Assembly: GCA_003576975.1 (NCBI GenBank)
Contig: QEVD01000001.1
Coordinates: 1-64,000 of the forward strand
Source of the DNA: Candidatus Zhuqueibacterota bacterium
GTDB lineage: Bacteria > Zhuqueibacterota > Zhuqueibacteria > Zhuqueibacterales > Zhuqueibacteraceae
Direction of reading: 5' to 3'
DNA length: 64,000 nt
Within the stretch, counting starts at the first letter, position 1. Each line of letters starts with the position of its first letter. The position numbers and the translations under genes were made by a program. The notes under the pieces were generated by a model. It ran no database searches and was not told where the DNA came from. It saw only the letters and a program-made list of their open reading frames with translations. Shown in pieces: positions 12,722-22,417 of the stretch.

Positions 12722-13228
12722 ATGCCTTCGCGCAAGACGCAAAAAGTCCAATATTCCATTCGCGAGGTAAGCCGCATCACCTCATTGAAGCCGTACGTCT
12801 TGCGCTATTGGGAAACGGAATTCTCTGAGTTGCATCCCAGGAAAGATCGCAGCGGCAACCGCATCTACCGCTTGGAGGACATCAAGCTCATCTTTCTTAT
12901 CAAAAAATTGCTGTACCAGGAAAAATACACCATTGCGGGTGCGCGGCAGCGCTTGAAGGCAATGAAACAAAGCAGCCCGCAAATGGCGCTTTCGTTTGAG
13001 GACTTGCGCAGCGAGGACACGTTATTCGAAATCAAAAAAGAGCTGGAAAATCTCCTGACGCTGTTTGAGCCTTCCAAATCGCCGGCCAAGCTCCGCCATG
13101 GGTTTGCGCCCAAGAAAAATAAAAATGGAAGCTTGCCCGGCTCAATGGAGGCCGTTCCAAGCCCACCCCCGGCAGCAAATCTTTCAGAGCCGGCCTCTTC
13201 TTCACCGCCCGATCAAATTCCCGACTGA
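12722..13228 (+). CDS. MerR-family transcriptional regulator
   Basis: A 168-residue DNA-binding protein. Residues 10-78 form a MerR winged helix: YSIREVSRITSLKPYVLRYW, then the wing RSGNRIYRLEDIKLIFLIKK and the helix TIAGARQRLKAM. This N-terminal form with KPYVLRYWETEF is the one widespread in diverse bacteria beside translation or housekeeping genes. Residues 90-120 are a coiled-coil-like dimerisation segment, and the tail is Pro/Ser-rich and probably disordered. No effector-binding Cys residues are present, so it is not a metal sensor of the MerR/CueR type. Target unknown; it follows a perfect hairpin by 63 bases. Confidence 0.85.
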   Translation: MPSRKTQKVQYSIREVSRITSLKPYVLRYWETEFSELHPRKDRSGNRIYRLEDIKLIFLIKKLLYQEKYTIAGARQRLKAMKQSSPQMALSFEDLRSEDTLFEIKKELENLLTLFEPSKSPAKLRHGFAPKKNKNGSLPGSMEAVPSPPPAANLSEPASSSPPDQIPD

Positions 13229-13338
13229 TTGTAACCTGTGTCCTTAGGTATCATCTCTCTCCTGCGTAAGTGAGAGCGCAGCAGTATTATTTTTTGAATT
13301 GGCAAAAATCTTTCTTTTTATCTAGGCTGGAGCGCAGT

Positions 13339-16300
13339 ATGAAAAAAGCAAATCGGCTTTGGACATGGTCATTATTCGCGATGCTGGCCGCAAGCGTTGC
13401 TCGACCCGCGTCAGCGCAGGATCTCGGATTGCCTTCGACCACACAAAAATTGAACAGCCGCACGGTTATCATCAAAGACGGCTGGTCTTGTGATTTTGCG
13501 CTCAAAAGACCCGGGCAAGCAATTGCATCGCTGCAAATCTACTCCGCCACCAACTGGGAGGATTCAACCGTGCCGGGTCTGGTGCTGGGCGTGGCCGTGG
13601 ACGGCAAACTGCGTTCGCATGTCGTAACCTTTCGCGGCGGAGAATTTCATCATTATGAAGTGCATTTGGGTTTCATCGATGCGGGCGAACACACGCTGGA
13701 ATTGCTGCGCGCCGACTCCTCTGCGCTTGAACGGCAGCGCGATTTGAAACTTGTCAACCTTCGCCTGGAGATCTATCATGCCGATCATCCGCAATATCCG
13801 ATTTTAGCGCATGCCCCGCTGTTGTTTGGCCGCCGGGACGGTCGCGCCTCGGATATTCCTCTGCTGCTCGCTTATCAAACCAAAGAAGATCCCTCGCGTG
13901 GCCTGCAAGAAATCACTTATTCCGTTATCTACAGCAACGAAGACGGCGGTACACCTGCCCTGGGGTTGCTGCATCGTTGGGGACGCTACACCGACATTGA
14001 ATGGACGTATCGCGTCGAGCTTGAACCAAACGGCGAGCGCAGACGCGCCTTTTATCAAGGCCGTGAGCACAAAACCGTCGAATTTCGCGGCGGCCTTGAA
14101 AACAACCAACCGGCGCTGCAAGTAGCGACGCAGAATAATATGCTGTCCGACACGCTGGCAAGCCGGTTGCGTTTTGCCTTGGCGCCACGGCGGGAATTGC
14201 CTGTTGGAGAAGCGCGTGAACGCTTGATGTTGGCCGAGCCCTGGATTTGGCAAGTGAGCGCAGCAGAAGCGCGCCGCGAGCAGCGGCTTGCAACATTTGC
14301 GCAGCACGATCCGCCGATTAACGATCTGCAGCGATACTTGTTCGTGGAATTCTCGGCGCAACCCCGCCGCGGCGGGGCCAGCGACACTTGCGGCGGATTT
14401 TTTCTGGCAAAATACCGCGGACAAGCAGGCGAGTACGCTTCCCACGTATGGTCGCCACGACTTGTAATCACTTCCACCTCACCATATGCGCGACAAACGG
14501 CGATTCCTTTGCCTACAGGCGCAGTCGCAGATGATCTCGTGTGGCTGGATTTCGTGGCCGATCCGAATCACGGCAGCATCGTGCTCACGGGCGTCAATCA
14601 CTTGTTCGCGCTTGATGCGCAGGATTTGCCGCGTTTTTGGCCGCCAAGCTGGAACGGCCGCGTCGAGCTGCGGCCGGGCGAACGTGTGCGTTTTCACATC
14701 GAGGGTTTTCAGATGAAACGCTCGCGGTTTTGGGCGCTGCATGAAGGTGATTGGTCATACAAGCCGGATCCCTGGCGGCAGGGCGGGCCTGATCGTTGGG
14801 GCGAGGGCAAAATTCACGAGCAGCTTTGGCCCAAACTGCGCAACGGCGATGCCTGGACAGAACAAAGCTTTGAGGGTGTGACGTGGTATCGCCAGCTTTT
14901 TGCGCTCGATCGTAGTTGGCGCGGTGAAAAAATGTGGTTGCTGCTGGGCAAAATTGCTGGCAATTCCCAAATGTGGTTAAACAATAAACCACTGGCGTTC
15001 TCGGATACAACCGGCGCGGCTATCGAGCAAAATCAGCAAGCCCTCGATGTCTCGTCTTCAGTCAAATTCGACCGCGAGAATTCACTGGTCGTGCGCGTAG
15101 AGGGCGGGAGCTCGCTGCCTGGCATGTTGCGCGGCCCCATCGGGATCGGCAACACGCCCAATGCTGCCTCGGAGATTGACTTAAGAGCCACGGTCGATCC
15201 CGCGATCGATCAACAAGAGCTGTTTGAGTACTTGCGCCAGCCGTGGGCGATGATCGGCAGCCGTGCGAGCGGCGTTGCGACACAGATCACGCCGGAAGGC
15301 TTCTTGTTTACAGGCGCGGCGGAGATCATGTTTTATGGTGGGACTGATATGCAGCCACTCATGAGCCGCACGAAAACGTTGCGTAAGGGCTACTTGCCAA
15401 TTTTGAATTACACTGCACAACGCGGCCATATACAATATAGTTTCGAGACATTCGCCGTGGCGGAGCAGCATACTTCACCAACGCCGGTGAATTATGTACA
15501 AGTTGAGATCAAAAATCTCGGCAGCACGCCGCAACCCGCAGCGTTCGGCCTCGGCGTGCGGTTTCGCGGTGAAGCGCGGCGCTTCCCGAATCGAGTTGCC
15601 TTCAGTGACAATTGGCAATATCGCATCGCCGGAAGACAACTCCTGCGGGATGATGAGATCATTTGCCGATTGCCGGACACGCCCGCCAATCGTATTGAAT
15701 TGCCGCCTCGCTCGCAGCGGCAAGCCCACGAACCGGCGGGAATGATACTCTACAATTTCAACCTGGCTTCGGGCGCAGCACAACGACTGACTTTCGCATT
15801 GCCTACAACACCCCTGCCAACAACCAGCGCGATTACCGCAAGCCCGACCGACGACGAGGCCGCCAACTCTCGCAAGCAAACGGAACAATTATGGGAAAAT
15901 TTTCTAGGTGAAGGTGCGCAATTTTCTTTTCCGGAATCCAAAGTTACACAAGCGCTGCAGGCCCATTTGATCTATAACGCAATTCTGTTTGGCGGAACGC
16001 AACCCTTACCGAAGCGATACGCCGGACTCGCAGCAGAAGCCGCGCGAGCTTTCGATGTGATGGGGCATCATAATCTGGCGGAACACATTCTGCGACAACT
16101 TCTTCCGCATTGGCAGGAAGCCGCCCTCGCCCGTACGCGCGAAAGTCAAGGTACCGAGGCATCGTGGGAAATGGACGGTCAAATTTGTTGGGCTGTGCGG
16201 CAACACCTTGAGCTGACTCATGATTTCGCGCTGGGCCGCGACTTCATGCCCATCTTAAAAAATGTGGCAGAAGAAATCAAACATCTCGCTGACCGACCAG

Positions 16301-17259
16301 GGACGAGCAATGCCCAATACGAGGCAATAGCGATCTTGCAGCACGCTGTAGAAATCGCACAGATGCTGGAGGCGCAGGCGGAGTTCGAACAGTTTTCGCG
16401 CGAGCTGGCGGCACTACAAAAAAATCTCGAAATTGTGCATGCGACGACTACACCAGCGCTAACCAGCCGCCAACTCTTCGGCGAGGCCTGGCCTGTAAGC
16501 TTGCCGGTCGCCTCCTTGGCGCCTCAATCTTTGCCGGAGCATAACCGGCTCTCCGCTGTTTTACGTGATTGGCGCGGTCACGGCGAGGAAGGACTATTTA
16601 CGAACGCACAAGACGGCGGGCTAGCCCCGAATGCCACTTTCGCTTCGGCCTACGCAGCGTTGTTACGCAACGATGCGGAAACGGTGGTAAAGAATCTTTA
16701 CGCACTATTGCTGCATACGAGTGCGAGCCACCATGTCATTGGCGAGCGCGTGACGCCTTGGGGCGATCGCCAGGAACACGGCGACGTTACACCGTTCACG
16801 CCCTTCGGCTCAAGATTAATTGCCTTGCTGCGCGACATACTCATCCGCGAGGAAGGGCGCGACCTGCATTTATTCTCCGCCGTATCACCCGCGTGGCTGA
16901 AACCCGGCGACGAAATCGCGCTCAGCAACGCAGACACCAAATTTGGCCGCCTTTCATTTAAAGCGACTGTACACTCAGACCGGCTCGTCATCGAAATCAA
17001 CCAGCACTGGCATAATGTGCCGCGTTTCCTGAGTTTTCACGTGCCGGCTTATGTGCAAGTCCAAAGCGTGTTAAGCGATCGCCAGGAAATTGCAGCGCAA
17101 GGAGATGTCATCCAGCTCTCGCCGCATGCCAGCCGGGTCGAGATCATCTGGAAAAACGAAGCCGAACGTCAGCGATTGAACCTGAATTCGACGATTACAG
17201 ATTTCAAGAATGAATATCAGGGCCGCTATCATTTATGGCGGGCGCAAATCACACAGTAA
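13339..17259 (+). CDS. Very large secreted protein with six-hairpin-glycosidase-like region
   Basis: A 1306-residue exported protein. Residues 1-27 are a signal peptide ending Arg-Pro-Ala-Ser-Ala. The first 470 residues are beta-rich and unassigned. Around residues 515-600, TWYRQLFALDRSWRGEKMWL and SQMWLNNKPLAF resemble the sugar-binding jelly-roll of GH2-type enzymes. Residues about 860-1200 are helical and resemble an (alpha/alpha)6 six-hairpin glycosidase barrel (AHLIYNAILFGG, then MDGQICWAVRQHLELTHD, later GEEGLFTNAQDGGLAPN), and a beta-sandwich ends the protein. A carbohydrate-active enzyme or binding protein is likely; the catalytic residues are not identified. The start at 13339 has GGAG upstream and the signal peptide; the frame is open to 13270. 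Confidence 0.65.
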   Translation: MKKANRLWTWSLFAMLAASVARPASAQDLGLPSTTQKLNSRTVIIKDGWSCDFALKRPGQAIASLQIYSATNWEDSTVPGLVLGVAVDGKLRSHVVTFRGGEFHHYEVHLGFIDAGEHTLELLRADSSALERQRDLKLVNLRLEIYHADHPQYPILAHAPLLFGRRDGRASDIPLLLAYQTKEDPSRGLQEITYSVIYSNEDGGTPALGLLHRWGRYTDIEWTYRVELEPNGERRRAFYQGREHKTVEFRGGLENNQPALQVATQNNMLSDTLASRLRFALAPRRELPVGEARERLMLAEPWIWQVSAAEARREQRLATFAQHDPPINDLQRYLFVEFSAQPRRGGASDTCGGFFLAKYRGQAGEYASHVWSPRLVITSTSPYARQTAIPLPTGAVADDLVWLDFVADPNHGSIVLTGVNHLFALDAQDLPRFWPPSWNGRVELRPGERVRFHIEGFQMKRSRFWALHEGDWSYKPDPWRQGGPDRWGEGKIHEQLWPKLRNGDAWTEQSFEGVTWYRQLFALDRSWRGEKMWLLLGKIAGNSQMWLNNKPLAFSDTTGAAIEQNQQALDVSSSVKFDRENSLVVRVEGGSSLPGMLRGPIGIGNTPNAASEIDLRATVDPAIDQQELFEYLRQPWAMIGSRASGVATQITPEGFLFTGAAEIMFYGGTDMQPLMSRTKTLRKGYLPILNYTAQRGHIQYSFETFAVAEQHTSPTPVNYVQVEIKNLGSTPQPAAFGLGVRFRGEARRFPNRVAFSDNWQYRIAGRQLLRDDEIICRLPDTPANRIELPPRSQRQAHEPAGMILYNFNLASGAAQRLTFALPTTPLPTTSAITASPTDDEAANSRKQTEQLWENFLGEGAQFSFPESKVTQALQAHLIYNAILFGGTQPLPKRYAGLAAEAARAFDVMGHHNLAEHILRQLLPHWQEAALARTRESQGTEASWEMDGQICWAVRQHLELTHDFALGRDFMPILKNVAEEIKHLADRPGTSNAQYEAIAILQHAVEIAQMLEAQAEFEQFSRELAALQKNLEIVHATTTPALTSRQLFGEAWPVSLPVASLAPQSLPEHNRLSAVLRDWRGHGEEGLFTNAQDGGLAPNATFASAYAALLRNDAETVVKNLYALLLHTSASHHVIGERVTPWGDRQEHGDVTPFTPFGSRLIALLRDILIREEGRDLHLFSAVSPAWLKPGDEIALSNADTKFGRLSFKATVHSDRLVIEINQHWHNVPRFLSFHVPAYVQVQSVLSDRQEIAAQGDVIQLSPHASRVEIIWKNEAERQRLNLNSTITDFKNEYQGRYHLWRAQITQ

Positions 17260-17498
17260 ATGTCTACGCACGATTGGTAACGTGTAACACCAACCGCTCT
17301 ACGACAACGAATATGCTGCGGCACGTGCCGAGAACGTCAAGCCGAATTTTCCACTTGCAATTGGTAATTGTAAAAACTATGTTCGCTCGCAAAATGAAAT
17401 ACCTCTGCGGCATCTAACCTGCTCTGCTCCATGAAATCGCGCATGGCGCCACTGTCTCGCTGACATAAACGCCGATCGTTCATGAAACTGACATCCGT

Positions 17499-18143
17499 AT
17501 GCCGAAAGAAAAGCCTATGAAAAAGCACAAGGCTGGTGGTGGCAGGGGAAAAGACAACACATTATTCGATTGGGAAGCTTGCCTAGCGAGCGCCAAAGCC
17601 GGCGATGCGCATGCGTTGGCTGAACTGTGCGAACGCGTGCTGCGGCGATCGGAGAAATATGCACAGCATGAAGGCCTGCCGAAGAATTATTCATCCGAAG
17701 ACTTTGCCCAAGACGTCGTTCAACGATTCCTGCTGCAATTGCCGGGCATCCATTTTCTGAGAAGCTGGCTGGCGGGCGTTTGTGTTTACGCGCGCGCGGA
17801 TCTTTTTCGTCAATACGCGCTGAGGCGTTGCTCCTCGCTGGAACAAGACACAGCAAGAACCCGCGGCGCTGCGCTCGGGCAAATCGAGTTTTCCTCGCGA
17901 GATGACGAAGAAATTGAGGGCCGCGTGAATTTCGATTTTCTATTGGGGAACCTTACCAAAATTCAACGCGATATTATCGTTCTGCGCCTGGTCGACGGTT
18001 TGCCGTATGCCGAAATCGCAAAGATCTTAAATAAAAGTGAGCTTGCCGTTCGGGCGAGCTTTGTGCGCAGCAAGAAACGCTTGCGCGCAATCGTTGCTCC
18101 CAAGCCTGGGGAGGGTTACTCACATGGACTTGACTCAAGATGA
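17499..18143 (+). CDS. Sigma-70-family RNA polymerase sigma factor (ECF-like)
   Basis: A 214-residue sigma factor. Region 2 lies about residues 20-105 (EDFAQDVVQRFLLQLPGIHF and a core-binding segment FLRSWLAGVCVYARADLF), and region 4 lies about residues 145-200, with LTKIQRDIIVLRLVDGLPYA followed by the helix-turn-helix IAKILNKSELAVRASFVRSK. Region 3 is absent, as in extracytoplasmic-function sigmas. The first 25 residues are Lys/Gly-rich. Its stop overlaps the start of the next gene by 20 bases, an arrangement typical of sigma/anti-sigma pairs, and that next gene has two zinc-finger anti-sigma-like motifs. It is likely the regulator of a surface stress or polysaccharide regulon, inferred from context. 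Confidence 0.85.
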   Translation: MPKEKPMKKHKAGGGRGKDNTLFDWEACLASAKAGDAHALAELCERVLRRSEKYAQHEGLPKNYSSEDFAQDVVQRFLLQLPGIHFLRSWLAGVCVYARADLFRQYALRRCSSLEQDTARTRGAALGQIEFSSRDDEEIEGRVNFDFLLGNLTKIQRDIIVLRLVDGLPYAEIAKILNKSELAVRASFVRSKKRLRAIVAPKPGEGYSHGLDSR

Positions 18144-19164
18144 GCACAAAAGCTTGATGAGGGCATTGCGCAATGCACAACCCATTACCAACACACGATT
18201 CGTAAAGCATCTGCGGCGCTGCAAGCGTTGTCAAGAGATTATCCGCCAAACCTCACAGTGGCACAGCGCGGTGGATTATCTCCGTTCTTACCATGTCTCT
18301 GTCGAACAATTGCTGCGCTACATTACAGAGGTCAAACAATCCGAATACAGCCCGCATACCGTTTCTCCTGAAGCAAACACGCGAGAAGTCCTATCACATT
18401 TGCAAGAATGCAGCTTGTGCCGCAAGCGGCTAACCTACTACCGGCGCAAGTTTGACTCCGCTGAAAAGATTCTCATCGAGCCTGCACCCGTGGCAAGCGA
18501 GCAGGCTGTTGCGTCATCGCCGGCGCGCCCCGGCACTGGATTTTTCAGGCCACGCAGGCTGTTGTTCGGCGGGGGTGTTTTTGCGGCCCTGCTCCTGGTC
18601 GGGGTGATCACAGTTCACTGGCAGACTTTTGCTTCATATTTGCAATCGCCCGAGCAGCTCCGGGCCACCGTGGCGTATGATAATTTTGACTATTTGTCGG
18701 CGGATCGCAGAAGCAGCAAGCCGCCAATTTTTTCCGCACATGACATAAAAGATTTGCTAAAAAACGCTGAGTATGCCAAAGCACAATCGAAAGCACAGGC
18801 TGCCTTTGCCCAGACCGGCCTGTCCGAAGATGAACTTCTGCAGGCGCATTTGTATGATTTGATGGCAACGCTTAAATTAGCGCAACGCAAAAAGTTCTTT
18901 TTTATGCTCGACGGTTTCGATACCACCAGCGTAGCTCTGGCAGTTGACCGCTGCGAGAAAGTCCTGGCAAACATTGCTTCAGATTCAGAGGTATTTGGAA
19001 CAAGCGAATATGGACTATTGTGTTACTATTTAGGGAAAGCTTCCTATATTTCAGGCACAATTCCAGAAGCCCAAAAATATTTTGACCAAGCGATAAAAAT
19101 TTCAAACCCCCGCCTAAGCGAAGCGCGCCGATTACGGGAAAAAACCAAACACACAACAGATTAA
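18124..19164 (+). CDS. Putative anti-sigma factor: two HX3CX2C motifs, one membrane segment, TPR-like tail
   Basis: A 346-residue protein. The cytoplasmic N-terminal part holds two zinc-binding-like motifs, His29-X3-Cys33-X2-Cys36 and His92-X3-Cys96-X2-Cys99; each matches the core of the zinc anti-sigma (ZAS) domain, and normally there is one. Residues 147-165 are a single membrane segment. The C-terminal 150 residues are helical, ending in a TPR-like unit (YLGKASYISGTIPEAQKYFDQAIKI), presumably periplasmic. The ATG at 18124 has GGGGAGGG nine bases upstream and overlaps the sigma gene by 20 bases; an earlier in-frame start at 18037 is rejected. Function as anti-sigma factor is inferred from motif plus overlap. 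Confidence 0.7.
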   Translation: MDLTQDEHKSLMRALRNAQPITNTRFVKHLRRCKRCQEIIRQTSQWHSAVDYLRSYHVSVEQLLRYITEVKQSEYSPHTVSPEANTREVLSHLQECSLCRKRLTYYRRKFDSAEKILIEPAPVASEQAVASSPARPGTGFFRPRRLLFGGGVFAALLLVGVITVHWQTFASYLQSPEQLRATVAYDNFDYLSADRRSSKPPIFSAHDIKDLLKNAEYAKAQSKAQAAFAQTGLSEDELLQAHLYDLMATLKLAQRKKFFFMLDGFDTTSVALAVDRCEKVLANIASDSEVFGTSEYGLLCYYLGKASYISGTIPEAQKYFDQAIKISNPRLSEARRLREKTKHTTD

Positions 19165-19215: not shown

Positions 19216-20460
19216 ATGTCACAATCAATTGAAGCAAAGCTTTTGGAGCAATGGCTTTTCTACACCCAGGCAATCGCCCTCTTTGCCCTTGCCGCATTTG
19301 TCAATTTCTCCATTGCCGGCGCTCACATTAGTTTGGGATTGCTGACGCTGGCCGTTAGCTTGCAACTGTTGCTAACCAAACGTCGCCAGCCAGCCGCGCG
19401 CGCCGCGCTTATGCTTGGTTTTGAATGGCCGGTTATGGCGTTTACCGGCGCCTGCCTGATCGCCACCCTGCTTTCAGACTCTCCCCGCGAAAGTTTTCAC
19501 AATATGCGCCATCTTTTGACGATTTTGGGCGCATATGGCGTCGCCTACACGTTGCGTCAACATCATGACTGGCGCACGCCGTTGCTCTGGACGTATATCG
19601 CAGTGGCGAGCGCGGCTGCACTTTATGGCCTGGCTAAATTTGCGCTGGGCGATCATATAAAAGTCATGAGTACGCAATCAACCACTATGACTTGGGGCGC
19701 GCTAGCAACCATGTTTGCGTTAATCACAACGCAGGTCGCGCTTTCGGGCGAAACCCGGCGCGCCCGCTGGCTTGCGCGGCTCTTGCTCGCGCCGCAATTA
19801 CTCGCGCTGTTATTCAGTTTGGTGCGCGGCGCCTACGTCGGTTATTTTGCCGGGCTGGCATATTTGCTGATCAATCAATGGCGTCGCGCCTTGCCGGCCG
19901 CGTTATTCGCTATCATCCTGCTGGTCTTCATCGCGCCGGATTCATTACAGCAACGCGTGCTCAGCATTTTTGATCTCTCGATAATGACGACGCAGGTTCG
20001 TTTCGAACAATGGCGCTATGCCGTGCAGATTTTTACTGATCATCCCTTCTTTGGCGTCGGATGGCGCGATTTGGCGGCCCTTACCCGCAGCTACGCCCCT
20101 CCCGGCACAAACATGTCAGAAGGCGTTGCCTTCGATGTTTTTCACATCGGCCACTATCACAGCATTTATGTTACCTTACTGGTTTGTGTTGGGTTGGTGG
20201 GATTGTCGGCATTTCTCTGGTTAATGTTCGCCGTTTGGCGAAAGCTTGGCATGGCCATGCGTGAAACGTCTGCGCCTCCTCGCCAGGTCGTGAAAGCGGC
20301 GCGCGCCGCCATGGTGGGTTTTCTGGTTGCGGGATTGTTTGATTGGACATTCGGCGACGCGGAGGTGGTGACGATGTTCTGGTTTGTGATCGGGATGGGA
20401 CTGGGACAACACTTGCAACACAAGGTTCCGCCATCCGCTGTGAGTTTTCCTGCCACATGA
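19216..20460 (+). CDS. O-antigen ligase/polymerase (Wzy_C/WaaL-type)
   Basis: A 414-residue multi-pass membrane protein with about 11 hydrophobic segments. The large conserved region matches the Wzy_C domain: SLVRGAYVGYFAGLAYLL and, after it, RFEQWRYAVQIFTDHPFFG with GVGWRDLAALTRSY, the Arg-rich and Gly-rich signature of O-antigen ligases and polymerases. It would transfer undecaprenyl-linked polysaccharide to an acceptor, or polymerise repeat units, on the periplasmic face. Its stop codon overlaps the start of the flippase gene (ATGA), so the two are translated together. Confidence 0.85.
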   Translation: MSQSIEAKLLEQWLFYTQAIALFALAAFVNFSIAGAHISLGLLTLAVSLQLLLTKRRQPAARAALMLGFEWPVMAFTGACLIATLLSDSPRESFHNMRHLLTILGAYGVAYTLRQHHDWRTPLLWTYIAVASAAALYGLAKFALGDHIKVMSTQSTTMTWGALATMFALITTQVALSGETRRARWLARLLLAPQLLALLFSLVRGAYVGYFAGLAYLLINQWRRALPAALFAIILLVFIAPDSLQQRVLSIFDLSIMTTQVRFEQWRYAVQIFTDHPFFGVGWRDLAALTRSYAPPGTNMSEGVAFDVFHIGHYHSIYVTLLVCVGLVGLSAFLWLMFAVWRKLGMAMRETSAPPRQVVKAARAAMVGFLVAGLFDWTFGDAEVVTMFWFVIGMGLGQHLQHKVPPSAVSFPAT

Positions 20461-21746
20461 GCTTTCTGCGCAAAAGCTCGTTGACCCTGGCAACGCGCCT
20501 GGGCGTCATCTTTTTCGGCTTCATAATATCGGCCTGGACTGCGCGCGTGTTGGGGCCGGAAGGCAAGGGTGTATATGCGCTTTTGACTCTTATTCCGATG
20601 CTGGCCGCGCAATTCGCCTGTCTCGGTCTGACGAATGCCAACATATTCTTGATTGGGCAGGGCCGCACCGCGCCAAAACCCGCAGCAGAGAACACCCTGC
20701 TCTTTGCGATTGCCGCGAGCTTCGTAGTGCTGGGACTTTATTGGCTTCTGCGTGCGTGGCTCGACCCTCTGCTTTTCAAAAATATTTCCCCGGGATTGAA
20801 AATTCTAACGGTTTGGTCAATACCGTTTTACCTCATTTTTTTGTTATTTAATTACCTCGCACTCGCGGTTGATGATTTTCCGGCCTTCAATCTGCCGAAT
20901 TTGGGCCGGCAGGTTCTCGTGCTGCTGGGTTTTGGGGTGATTGCGCTCTGGCAGCAGACAACGCTGTTTCATGCAATGCTGCTGTGGAGCATTGTCAATG
21001 TTGTGATTGCCTGGCACAGTTGGTGGCTAATCTATCGGCGGGAACGTTTTCGCCTGGCCTGGCATCCGGCTCTTTTCCGGGAAACTCTCGGTTATGGTTT
21101 GAAAACGTATATTGGCGTTGTCCTTTACTTGTTGAATTGGCGGCTCGATTTTATTTTGTGCAATTTTTATCTCGACGCCGCGGCCGTGGGTTACTACTCG
21201 ACTTCCGCCACGATCGGCGAAATGCTGTGGTTTATCCCACAAACGTTATCCGTCGTCTTGCTGCCGCAAGTGGCGCGAGTTTCAGCAAGCGAGGCCCGGC
21301 ATTTGACCTCGCGTGTCTGCCGGTCTACAATCTGGCTCTCGCTGATTGCTGCGCTCGTTTTGGCGGCATTGGCAAAGCCGATTATCGCCCTGGTCTTTGG
21401 CGCAGAATTTTTGCCGGCGGCCCCTGCGCTGTTGTTGTTATTGCCGGGAATCGTGTTCTATTGCGTTACCAATCTCATAACCAGCTACGTCGTGGGGCGC
21501 GGGCATCCGCAAGAGAATAATCGCGCCCTGGCGCTGGCATTTCTCACGAATCTGCTGGCAAATTTATATGTCATTCCGCGCTGGGGAATCCTCGGAGCGG
21601 CTTTTGCCAGCACGCTGTCGTACACGCTGGCTACGGTTTATTTGCTACTGGCGTATCAACGCATCAGCGGCGCATCGTGGCGCGAAATCGTTTGGCTGCA
21701 ACGCCAGGATTTGCACTTTTCAAAAAATAAAACCAATCACGGATAA
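20457..21746 (+). CDS. Polysaccharide flippase (Wzx/MATE-like)
   Basis: A 429-residue integral membrane protein of the MOP superfamily polysaccharide-transporter type, with about 12 hydrophobic helices. The N-terminus (LTLATRLGVIFFGFIISAWT, then ARVLGPEGKGVYAL) matches the flippase family exactly. It would move lipid-linked oligosaccharide across the inner membrane for the ligase/polymerase encoded just before. The start at 20457 overlaps the ligase stop; the longer frame from 20343 is rejected as it lies within that gene. The methyltransferase gene follows after two bases. Confidence 0.85.
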   Translation: MSFLRKSSLTLATRLGVIFFGFIISAWTARVLGPEGKGVYALLTLIPMLAAQFACLGLTNANIFLIGQGRTAPKPAAENTLLFAIAASFVVLGLYWLLRAWLDPLLFKNISPGLKILTVWSIPFYLIFLLFNYLALAVDDFPAFNLPNLGRQVLVLLGFGVIALWQQTTLFHAMLLWSIVNVVIAWHSWWLIYRRERFRLAWHPALFRETLGYGLKTYIGVVLYLLNWRLDFILCNFYLDAAAVGYYSTSATIGEMLWFIPQTLSVVLLPQVARVSASEARHLTSRVCRSTIWLSLIAALVLAALAKPIIALVFGAEFLPAAPALLLLLPGIVFYCVTNLITSYVVGRGHPQENNRALALAFLTNLLANLYVIPRWGILGAAFASTLSYTLATVYLLLAYQRISGASWREIVWLQRQDLHFSKNKTNHG

Positions 21747-21748
21747 AA

Positions 21749-22417
21749 ATGAAAACCTTCACTCCGCCAACGGACTCGCCAACCTCTGTTTACGACGAAG
21801 CCGTCAAGCAAGAGGGCTTCTCGGAGACGCATCGTTATCTGCTGCAACACATTCCCGCGCACAGCACGGTTTTAGAGCTGGGCCCGGCCTCGGGCTATAT
21901 GACAAAAATAATGGCCAGGCGCGGCTGCCTGGTCGATGCCATCGAACTCAATGCGCAAGATGCGCAGAAGGCTGCGCCGTATTGCCGCAAAATCTTTGTC
22001 GGCTCGGTGGAGGACGAAGAAATTTTTTCTTCATTAACCGGCCCCTATCAAATTGCGCTTATGGCTGATGTGCTGGAACATTTGCGTCGCCCGGAAAGCG
22101 TGTTAAACCGGGTGCGGAAACTGCTGGCACCCGGAGGATCGGCGCTGGTATCGCTTCCCAATGTCGTATACTGGCGCATGCGGCTGGAATACTTGCGCGG
22201 GCGTTTCGATTACACGGACATGGGCATTCTGGATCGCACGCATTTACGCTTCTTCACGCTGAAAACAGCCGTGGCAATGTTCGAGGCATGCGGCTTTCGC
22301 GTTGAAACCATCGCATGCCCGACGCCAATAGACGCCTCCTTCCGCAAAACCAAGCAATGGCTGAGAAAAATCTCGCCCTCACTGTTCGCGTTTAATTTTG
22401 TATTTCACCTGAAATAA
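21749..22417 (+). CDS. Class I SAM-dependent methyltransferase
   Basis: A 222-residue protein of the Methyltransf_11/23 type. Motif I VLELGPASGYMTKIM binds S-adenosylmethionine, VDAIELN carries the acidic residue for the ribose, and IALMADVLEHLRRPESVL with LLAPGGSALVSLPN are motifs II and III. The form with NVVYWRMRLEYLRGRFDY and DRTHLRFFT is common in surface-polysaccharide clusters, where it methylates sugars or acts near glycosyltransferases. It ends the short polysaccharide unit, and a terminator hairpin follows four bases later. Confidence 0.85.
   Translation: MKTFTPPTDSPTSVYDEAVKQEGFSETHRYLLQHIPAHSTVLELGPASGYMTKIMARRGCLVDAIELNAQDAQKAAPYCRKIFVGSVEDEEIFSSLTGPYQIALMADVLEHLRRPESVLNRVRKLLAPGGSALVSLPNVVYWRMRLEYLRGRFDYTDMGILDRTHLRFFTLKTAVAMFEACGFRVETIACPTPIDASFRKTKQWLRKISPSLFAFNFVFHLK

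Follow-up and report, generated by a model that had tools for sequence, protein, structure and literature searches.

Genes at the locus

The stretch of DNA analysed here, referred to as the window, comprises 64,000 nucleotides from a Candidatus Zhuqueibacterota bacterium, and on its plus strand it carries a gene for an ECF-type sigma factor of 214 aa (17499..18143) whose end overlaps by 20 nt the gene for a 346-aa membrane protein with two tandem zinc anti-sigma modules and a TPR-like tail (18124..19164), the latter recognised by its motifs, orthologues and homologues. The ATG of the second gene at 18124 is preceded, at a spacing of 8 nt and within the sigma gene, by a strong Shine-Dalgarno sequence, GGGGAGGG (18108..18115, plus strand), which was read directly from the DNA. 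Both the 20-base overlap with an ECF-type sigma gene and the strong ribosome-binding site had been reported in an earlier note on this DNA, and both are borne out by these coordinates (18124 against 18143).

The sigma factor was assigned by a Pfam match to region 4 (Sigma70_r4_2, E 1.5e-11), by the ECF model TIGR02952, which covers residues 30-196 with an E-value of 3.1e-12 but falls short of its curated cut-off, and by its syntenic orthologues, while Pfam sigma region 2 gave no match in this protein at E <= 1. Among 22 paired sigma factors scanned with Pfam, region 2 was found in 17 and region 4 in 16. At 214 aa, the window sigma has the make-up of the ECF group, in which proteins of about 200 aa contain sigma2 and sigma4 domains only. 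Upstream of it, a conserved block in the upstream alignment contains a candidate operon promoter, TTGCAA, a 17-nt spacer and TATGTT (17355..17383, plus strand), which is kept in the window and in two related loci (L028 and L029) and less exactly in a third (L030, genome G004); a generic promoter scan did not call this element. It resembles promoters used by housekeeping, sigma-70-like factors more than those of ECF factors, and there is thus no sign that the ECF sigma regulates its own gene.

The pair is followed on the plus strand by an O-antigen ligase-like gene (19216-20460; Pfam Wzy_C), a flippase gene with its ATG at 20457 (20457-21746; Pfam Polysacc_synt_3/MurJ) and a methyltransferase gene (21749-22417; Pfam Methyltransf_23), all three also supported by synteny, and the terminator scan found no terminator-like site on the plus strand between 19164 and 19216. 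Upstream of the pair lie genes for a MerR-like regulator (12722-13228) and for a protein of 1329 aa that matches Glyco_hydro_2_N weakly (13270-17259), both of which are syntenic in the congeners and in G004.

The same gene pair, in the same place and with both zinc motifs, is present in two congeners (G001 and G002) and in one family member of another genus (G004), where the sigma and anti-sigma genes overlap by 26-35 nt and the neighbouring genes are largely shared. In the two congeners, modules 1 and 2 are more conserved than the linker and the tail. In G004, the anti-sigma and O-antigen ligase genes are separated by a gene (L030:5527-8295) whose 922-aa product carries a CarboxypepD_reg domain and has a FlgD_ig/secretion-tail-like end. 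In the sister genus (G003 and G006), the O-antigen ligase is present without the sigma/anti-sigma pair, and the link to polysaccharide genes is therefore local; the earlier statement that polysaccharide genes follow the pair is right for the window, and the link is seen in two genera, but it does not extend to the sister genus.

Two predicted zinc modules, a membrane helix and a tail

The membrane protein contains two HX3CX2C motifs, at residues 29-36 (HLRRCKRC) and 92-99 (HLQECSLC), exactly the 63 residues apart that the earlier note had counted. As in ChrR, RsrA and RslA, each is accompanied by a further ligand upstream (H8 and H57), so that the signature of a zinc-binding anti-sigma (ZAS) protein, HX3CX2C with an upstream His or Cys, occurs twice, as H8/H29/C33/C36 and as H57/H92/C96/C99. 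Module 1 lies at 18145..18231 and module 2, whose loop is longer than usual, at 18292..18420, both on the plus strand. The ligand columns are conserved in the homologues (H or C at 8, then H29, C33 and C36; H or C at 57, then H92, C96 and C99), and both modules look like complete predicted zinc sites. The Pfam family zf-HC2 gave the window protein 14.7 bits against a cut-off of 22.2, and was matched by 22 of 23 homologues at E <= 0.1. Two trivial explanations for the second motif were rejected: a chance occurrence, because both motifs, on whose conservation the earlier note had placed weight, recur in all the syntenic orthologues and the layout is found in 58 proteins, with the fourth ligand at the expected offset, and an artefact of frame or assembly, because the orthologues agree.

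A single transmembrane helix is predicted at about residues 146-166 (18559..18621, plus strand; hydropathy of 2.48 across the 19 residues that begin at residue 146), and the RPRR sequence before it places the N-terminus inside. The helical tail that follows (18649..19161, plus strand) is probably periplasmic and resembles TPR repeats, as judged from one weak TPR_2 match in the window protein (E 0.0083, below the Pfam cut-off), from TPR_2 matches in 15 of 23 homologues (best 1.5e-13) and from helices in a low-confidence model; the single membrane segment and TPR-like tail proposed earlier thus find support in the hydropathy and, for the tail, more clearly in the homologues than in the protein itself. 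Single-sequence AlphaFold models, one of the full-length protein and one limited to the tandem region, each with pLDDT of about 45, were too weak to use, also for judging the fold of a class I domain, a bundle of three helices with a helix 4 in contact with sigma2; the helices of the tandem-region model (pLDDT 44.7) fall at residues 5-17, 25-32, 34-42, 46-55, 60-69, 82-93 and 97-114. The protein is very probably the anti-sigma factor of the sigma encoded upstream.

Occurrence of the tandem form

Profile searches were made in 82 genomes of the phylum and in a wider set of 388 genomes. Because the search profile came from proteins with two motifs, the results understate the share of variants with one motif; the genome counts are lower bounds. 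The searches returned 58 tandem proteins in all, including a paralogue in the same genome (L034) and a protein of the same class (L033), and tandem proteins occur in at least 26 of the 82 genomes of the phylum and in at least 14 of about 306 genomes outside it; tandem ZAS domains in other genomes, which the earlier note had proposed to look for, are therefore present. The two motifs are 49-79 residues apart in these 58 proteins (median 59.5). The fourth ligand (H or C) lies 24-28 residues upstream in module 1 of 55/58 and in module 2 of 47/58, where 12-14% would be expected by chance as estimated from neighbouring positions, and most of the remaining proteins have it 35-38 residues upstream, like module 2 of the window protein.

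A sigma-like ORF on the same strand within 800 nt upstream accompanies 50 of the 58, overlapping the anti-sigma gene in 11 and lying within 100 nt in 29 (40 together), whereas for the other 8 an adjacent sigma gene was not found. The earlier idea of two zinc anti-sigma modules in a row, partnered with an ECF sigma, is supported. No transmembrane helix is predicted in 16 of the 58. The genome from which the window comes has 2 tandem proteins, a minority beside the roughly one dozen single-motif proteins that it encodes next to sigma genes. Outside the phylum, the tandem module is also found within a 693-aa protein (L117:1900-3981), in a 1191-aa protein (L123:1835-5410) and in a protein with further Cys-pair zinc-ribbon-like motifs (L118:2436-3323), each with a sigma gene upstream.

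The arrangement recurs in 58 proteins and is not singular; that recurrence, together with the alignment of a single-module profile at two places (see below), makes it a widespread variant rather than an oddity. The earlier note's statement that known ZAS proteins have one motif holds for characterised proteins, but in this phylum the tandem form is frequent, and it also occurs beyond the phylum. In literature searches that took in few subscription journals, no account of zinc anti-sigma proteins with tandem modules came up; the two-module form is apparently undescribed, its novelty is provisional, and domain databases may already list two-module architectures. With tails as varied as TPR, Ig-like, carboxypeptidase-regulatory-like and soluble forms, the family offers a testable class of sensors in little-studied bacteria.

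Profile comparisons and natural variants

The family profile matches solved anti-sigma structures, RsiW through module 1 and ChrR, RslA and DdvA through module 2, and the profiles of the two modules align with each other (98.3%). When a profile of 12 single-module anti-sigmas was compared with the tandem profile, it aligned twice, at positions 4-76 (97.9%) and 62-133 (97.8%), so that the end of the first aligned domain overlaps the start of the second. The first alignment puts the last part of the single domain, the expected start of its helix 4, onto the first helix of module 2.

Relatives that lack one module or one zinc site amount to a natural experiment, from which one may learn where the domain touches the sigma and what purpose the zinc has. 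In two of them (L069:2815-3873 and L136:1041-2168) the motif of module 1 is kept and the HX3CX2C of module 2 is lost, with a sigma gene upstream. Others have one module each, again with a sigma gene upstream (L154:1543-2604, L155:706-1740, L015/L035:7186-8175 and L078:2151-3149), and this lone module aligns far better with module 2 of the tandem proteins than with module 1 (160 against 70 for L154). Because some variants retain only module 2 and others have module 1 followed by a module 2 that has lost its zinc site, in each case with the sigma gene adjacent, either module can probably serve, and neither seems to be generally spare. A further protein with one motif and no sigma gene nearby (L031, genome G005) looks like a decayed orphan and was set aside as evidence on one-module forms. 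Correlations between the sigma tree and the module trees were both weak (partial 0.17 and 0.26), partly reflect shared ancestry and are not decisive.

A proposed composite clamp and its alternatives

The explanation that we regard as probable, if only by a little, is that a tandem class I zinc anti-sigma sequesters the ECF sigma translated with it, its two modules forming a composite clamp on one sigma. The sigma would thereby be tethered at the membrane, and each anti-sigma chain would most likely hold a single one. Class I anti-sigmas contact sigma4 through helix 1 and sigma2 through helix 4 in their complexes (PMC7406223). In the tandem protein, the place that helix 4 has in a single domain would be taken by the first helix of module 2; one sigma domain could then be held by module 1, the other by this shared helix or by module 2. 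Release of the sigma would follow from a signal at the periplasmic TPR-like tail, probably relayed by a partner protein or a protease, and the freed sigma may act on the adjoining polysaccharide genes among others. The sequences themselves show the gene pair, both full ligand sets, their conservation and recurrence, and the topology; zinc binding, inhibition, stoichiometry, signal and regulon are in all of this what we infer from them. One-module variants show that the composite clamp is not always needed.

Alternatively, the modules might be independent anti-sigma domains, and one chain might hold two sigma factors, either two copies of the cognate sigma or the cognate and a second one. In favour of this, neither module lacks a zinc ligand, either by itself looks like an entire anti-sigma domain, and natural variants retain either one beside a sigma gene; if two sigmas, possibly different, were held by each chain, a single membrane signal could release both, or the sigmas could compete for release. 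This is nevertheless distinctly improbable, since there is no room for a separate helix 4 of module 1 ahead of module 2 (the helix order being that of the low-confidence model) and since only one sigma gene is adjacent. The coincidence in sequence of module 1 helix 4 with module 2 helix 1, read with the class I contacts, leads us to favour the composite clamp, and a single sigma per chain is also what the relatives that manage with one module, or with one zinc site, speak for.

If instead only one module bound the sigma, the other could act as a stabiliser, mediate dimerisation or dock a partner, for instance a protease, as might be suggested by the loss of the module 2 zinc ligands in L069 and L136, which keep their sigma, and by a TPR-CHAT gene for a possible protease partner after the pair in relatives of the same class. 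In L154, L155, L035 and L078 it is module 2 and not module 1 that has been retained on its own, so that no one module is generally the sigma binder, and in the congeners the two modules are similarly conserved; we consider such a division of labour unlikely, though it keeps some weight. Finally, ChrR-like ligand sets and the 16/58 tandem proteins without a predicted transmembrane helix could point to redox or zinc sensors like RsrA or ChrR, in which oxidation of the Cys sites rather than a periplasmic signal frees the sigma. The window protein and most others are, however, membrane-anchored with large tails of differing kinds, and among class I anti-sigmas anchored in the membrane the zinc motif is regarded as often structural (PMC7406223), which leaves little likelihood for a redox switch.

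Comparison with known systems

One system with related parts is CRISPR type III-E, where Csx29, Csx30 and RpoE are a TPR-CHAT protease, a cleaved regulator and a sigma factor (PMC10028731). The likeness is that in other families of the phylum (L033, L066 and L071) a TPR-CHAT gene follows the sigma/tandem anti-sigma pair, whereas in the window the pair is not followed by a CHAT gene, and the CHAT protein of L033 differs in beginning with a signal-peptide-like stretch. These genes lie at L033:3430-6627 (minus strand; Pfam CHAT E 2.2e-72), L066:4091-6501 (plus strand) and L071:1-2756 (minus strand), and their position suggests a caspase-like partner for the anti-sigma in these families. Residues 7-48 of a solved 991-aa CHAT protein (PDB 8rot/8rw5) match the profile of the anti-sigma zinc module (E 0.0015), perhaps as a direct fusion of a zinc module to a CHAT protein.

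The closest known relatives are the zinc-binding class I anti-sigmas (ChrR, RsrA, RslA, RsiW and DdvA; zf-HC2), with which the window protein has in common the H/C ... HX3CX2C ligands, a gene directly downstream of and overlapping that of an ECF sigma, an N-terminal cytoplasmic module and, as is often the case in that class, a single transmembrane helix with a sensor tail. A survey of the class gives one HX3CX2C signature per domain and does not mention a tandem in its text (PMC7406223). The window family differs in having two modules in tandem, while the matches in the PDB span one module each; anti-sigma domains have been treated as single modules with one zinc motif, and the two-module form recurs.
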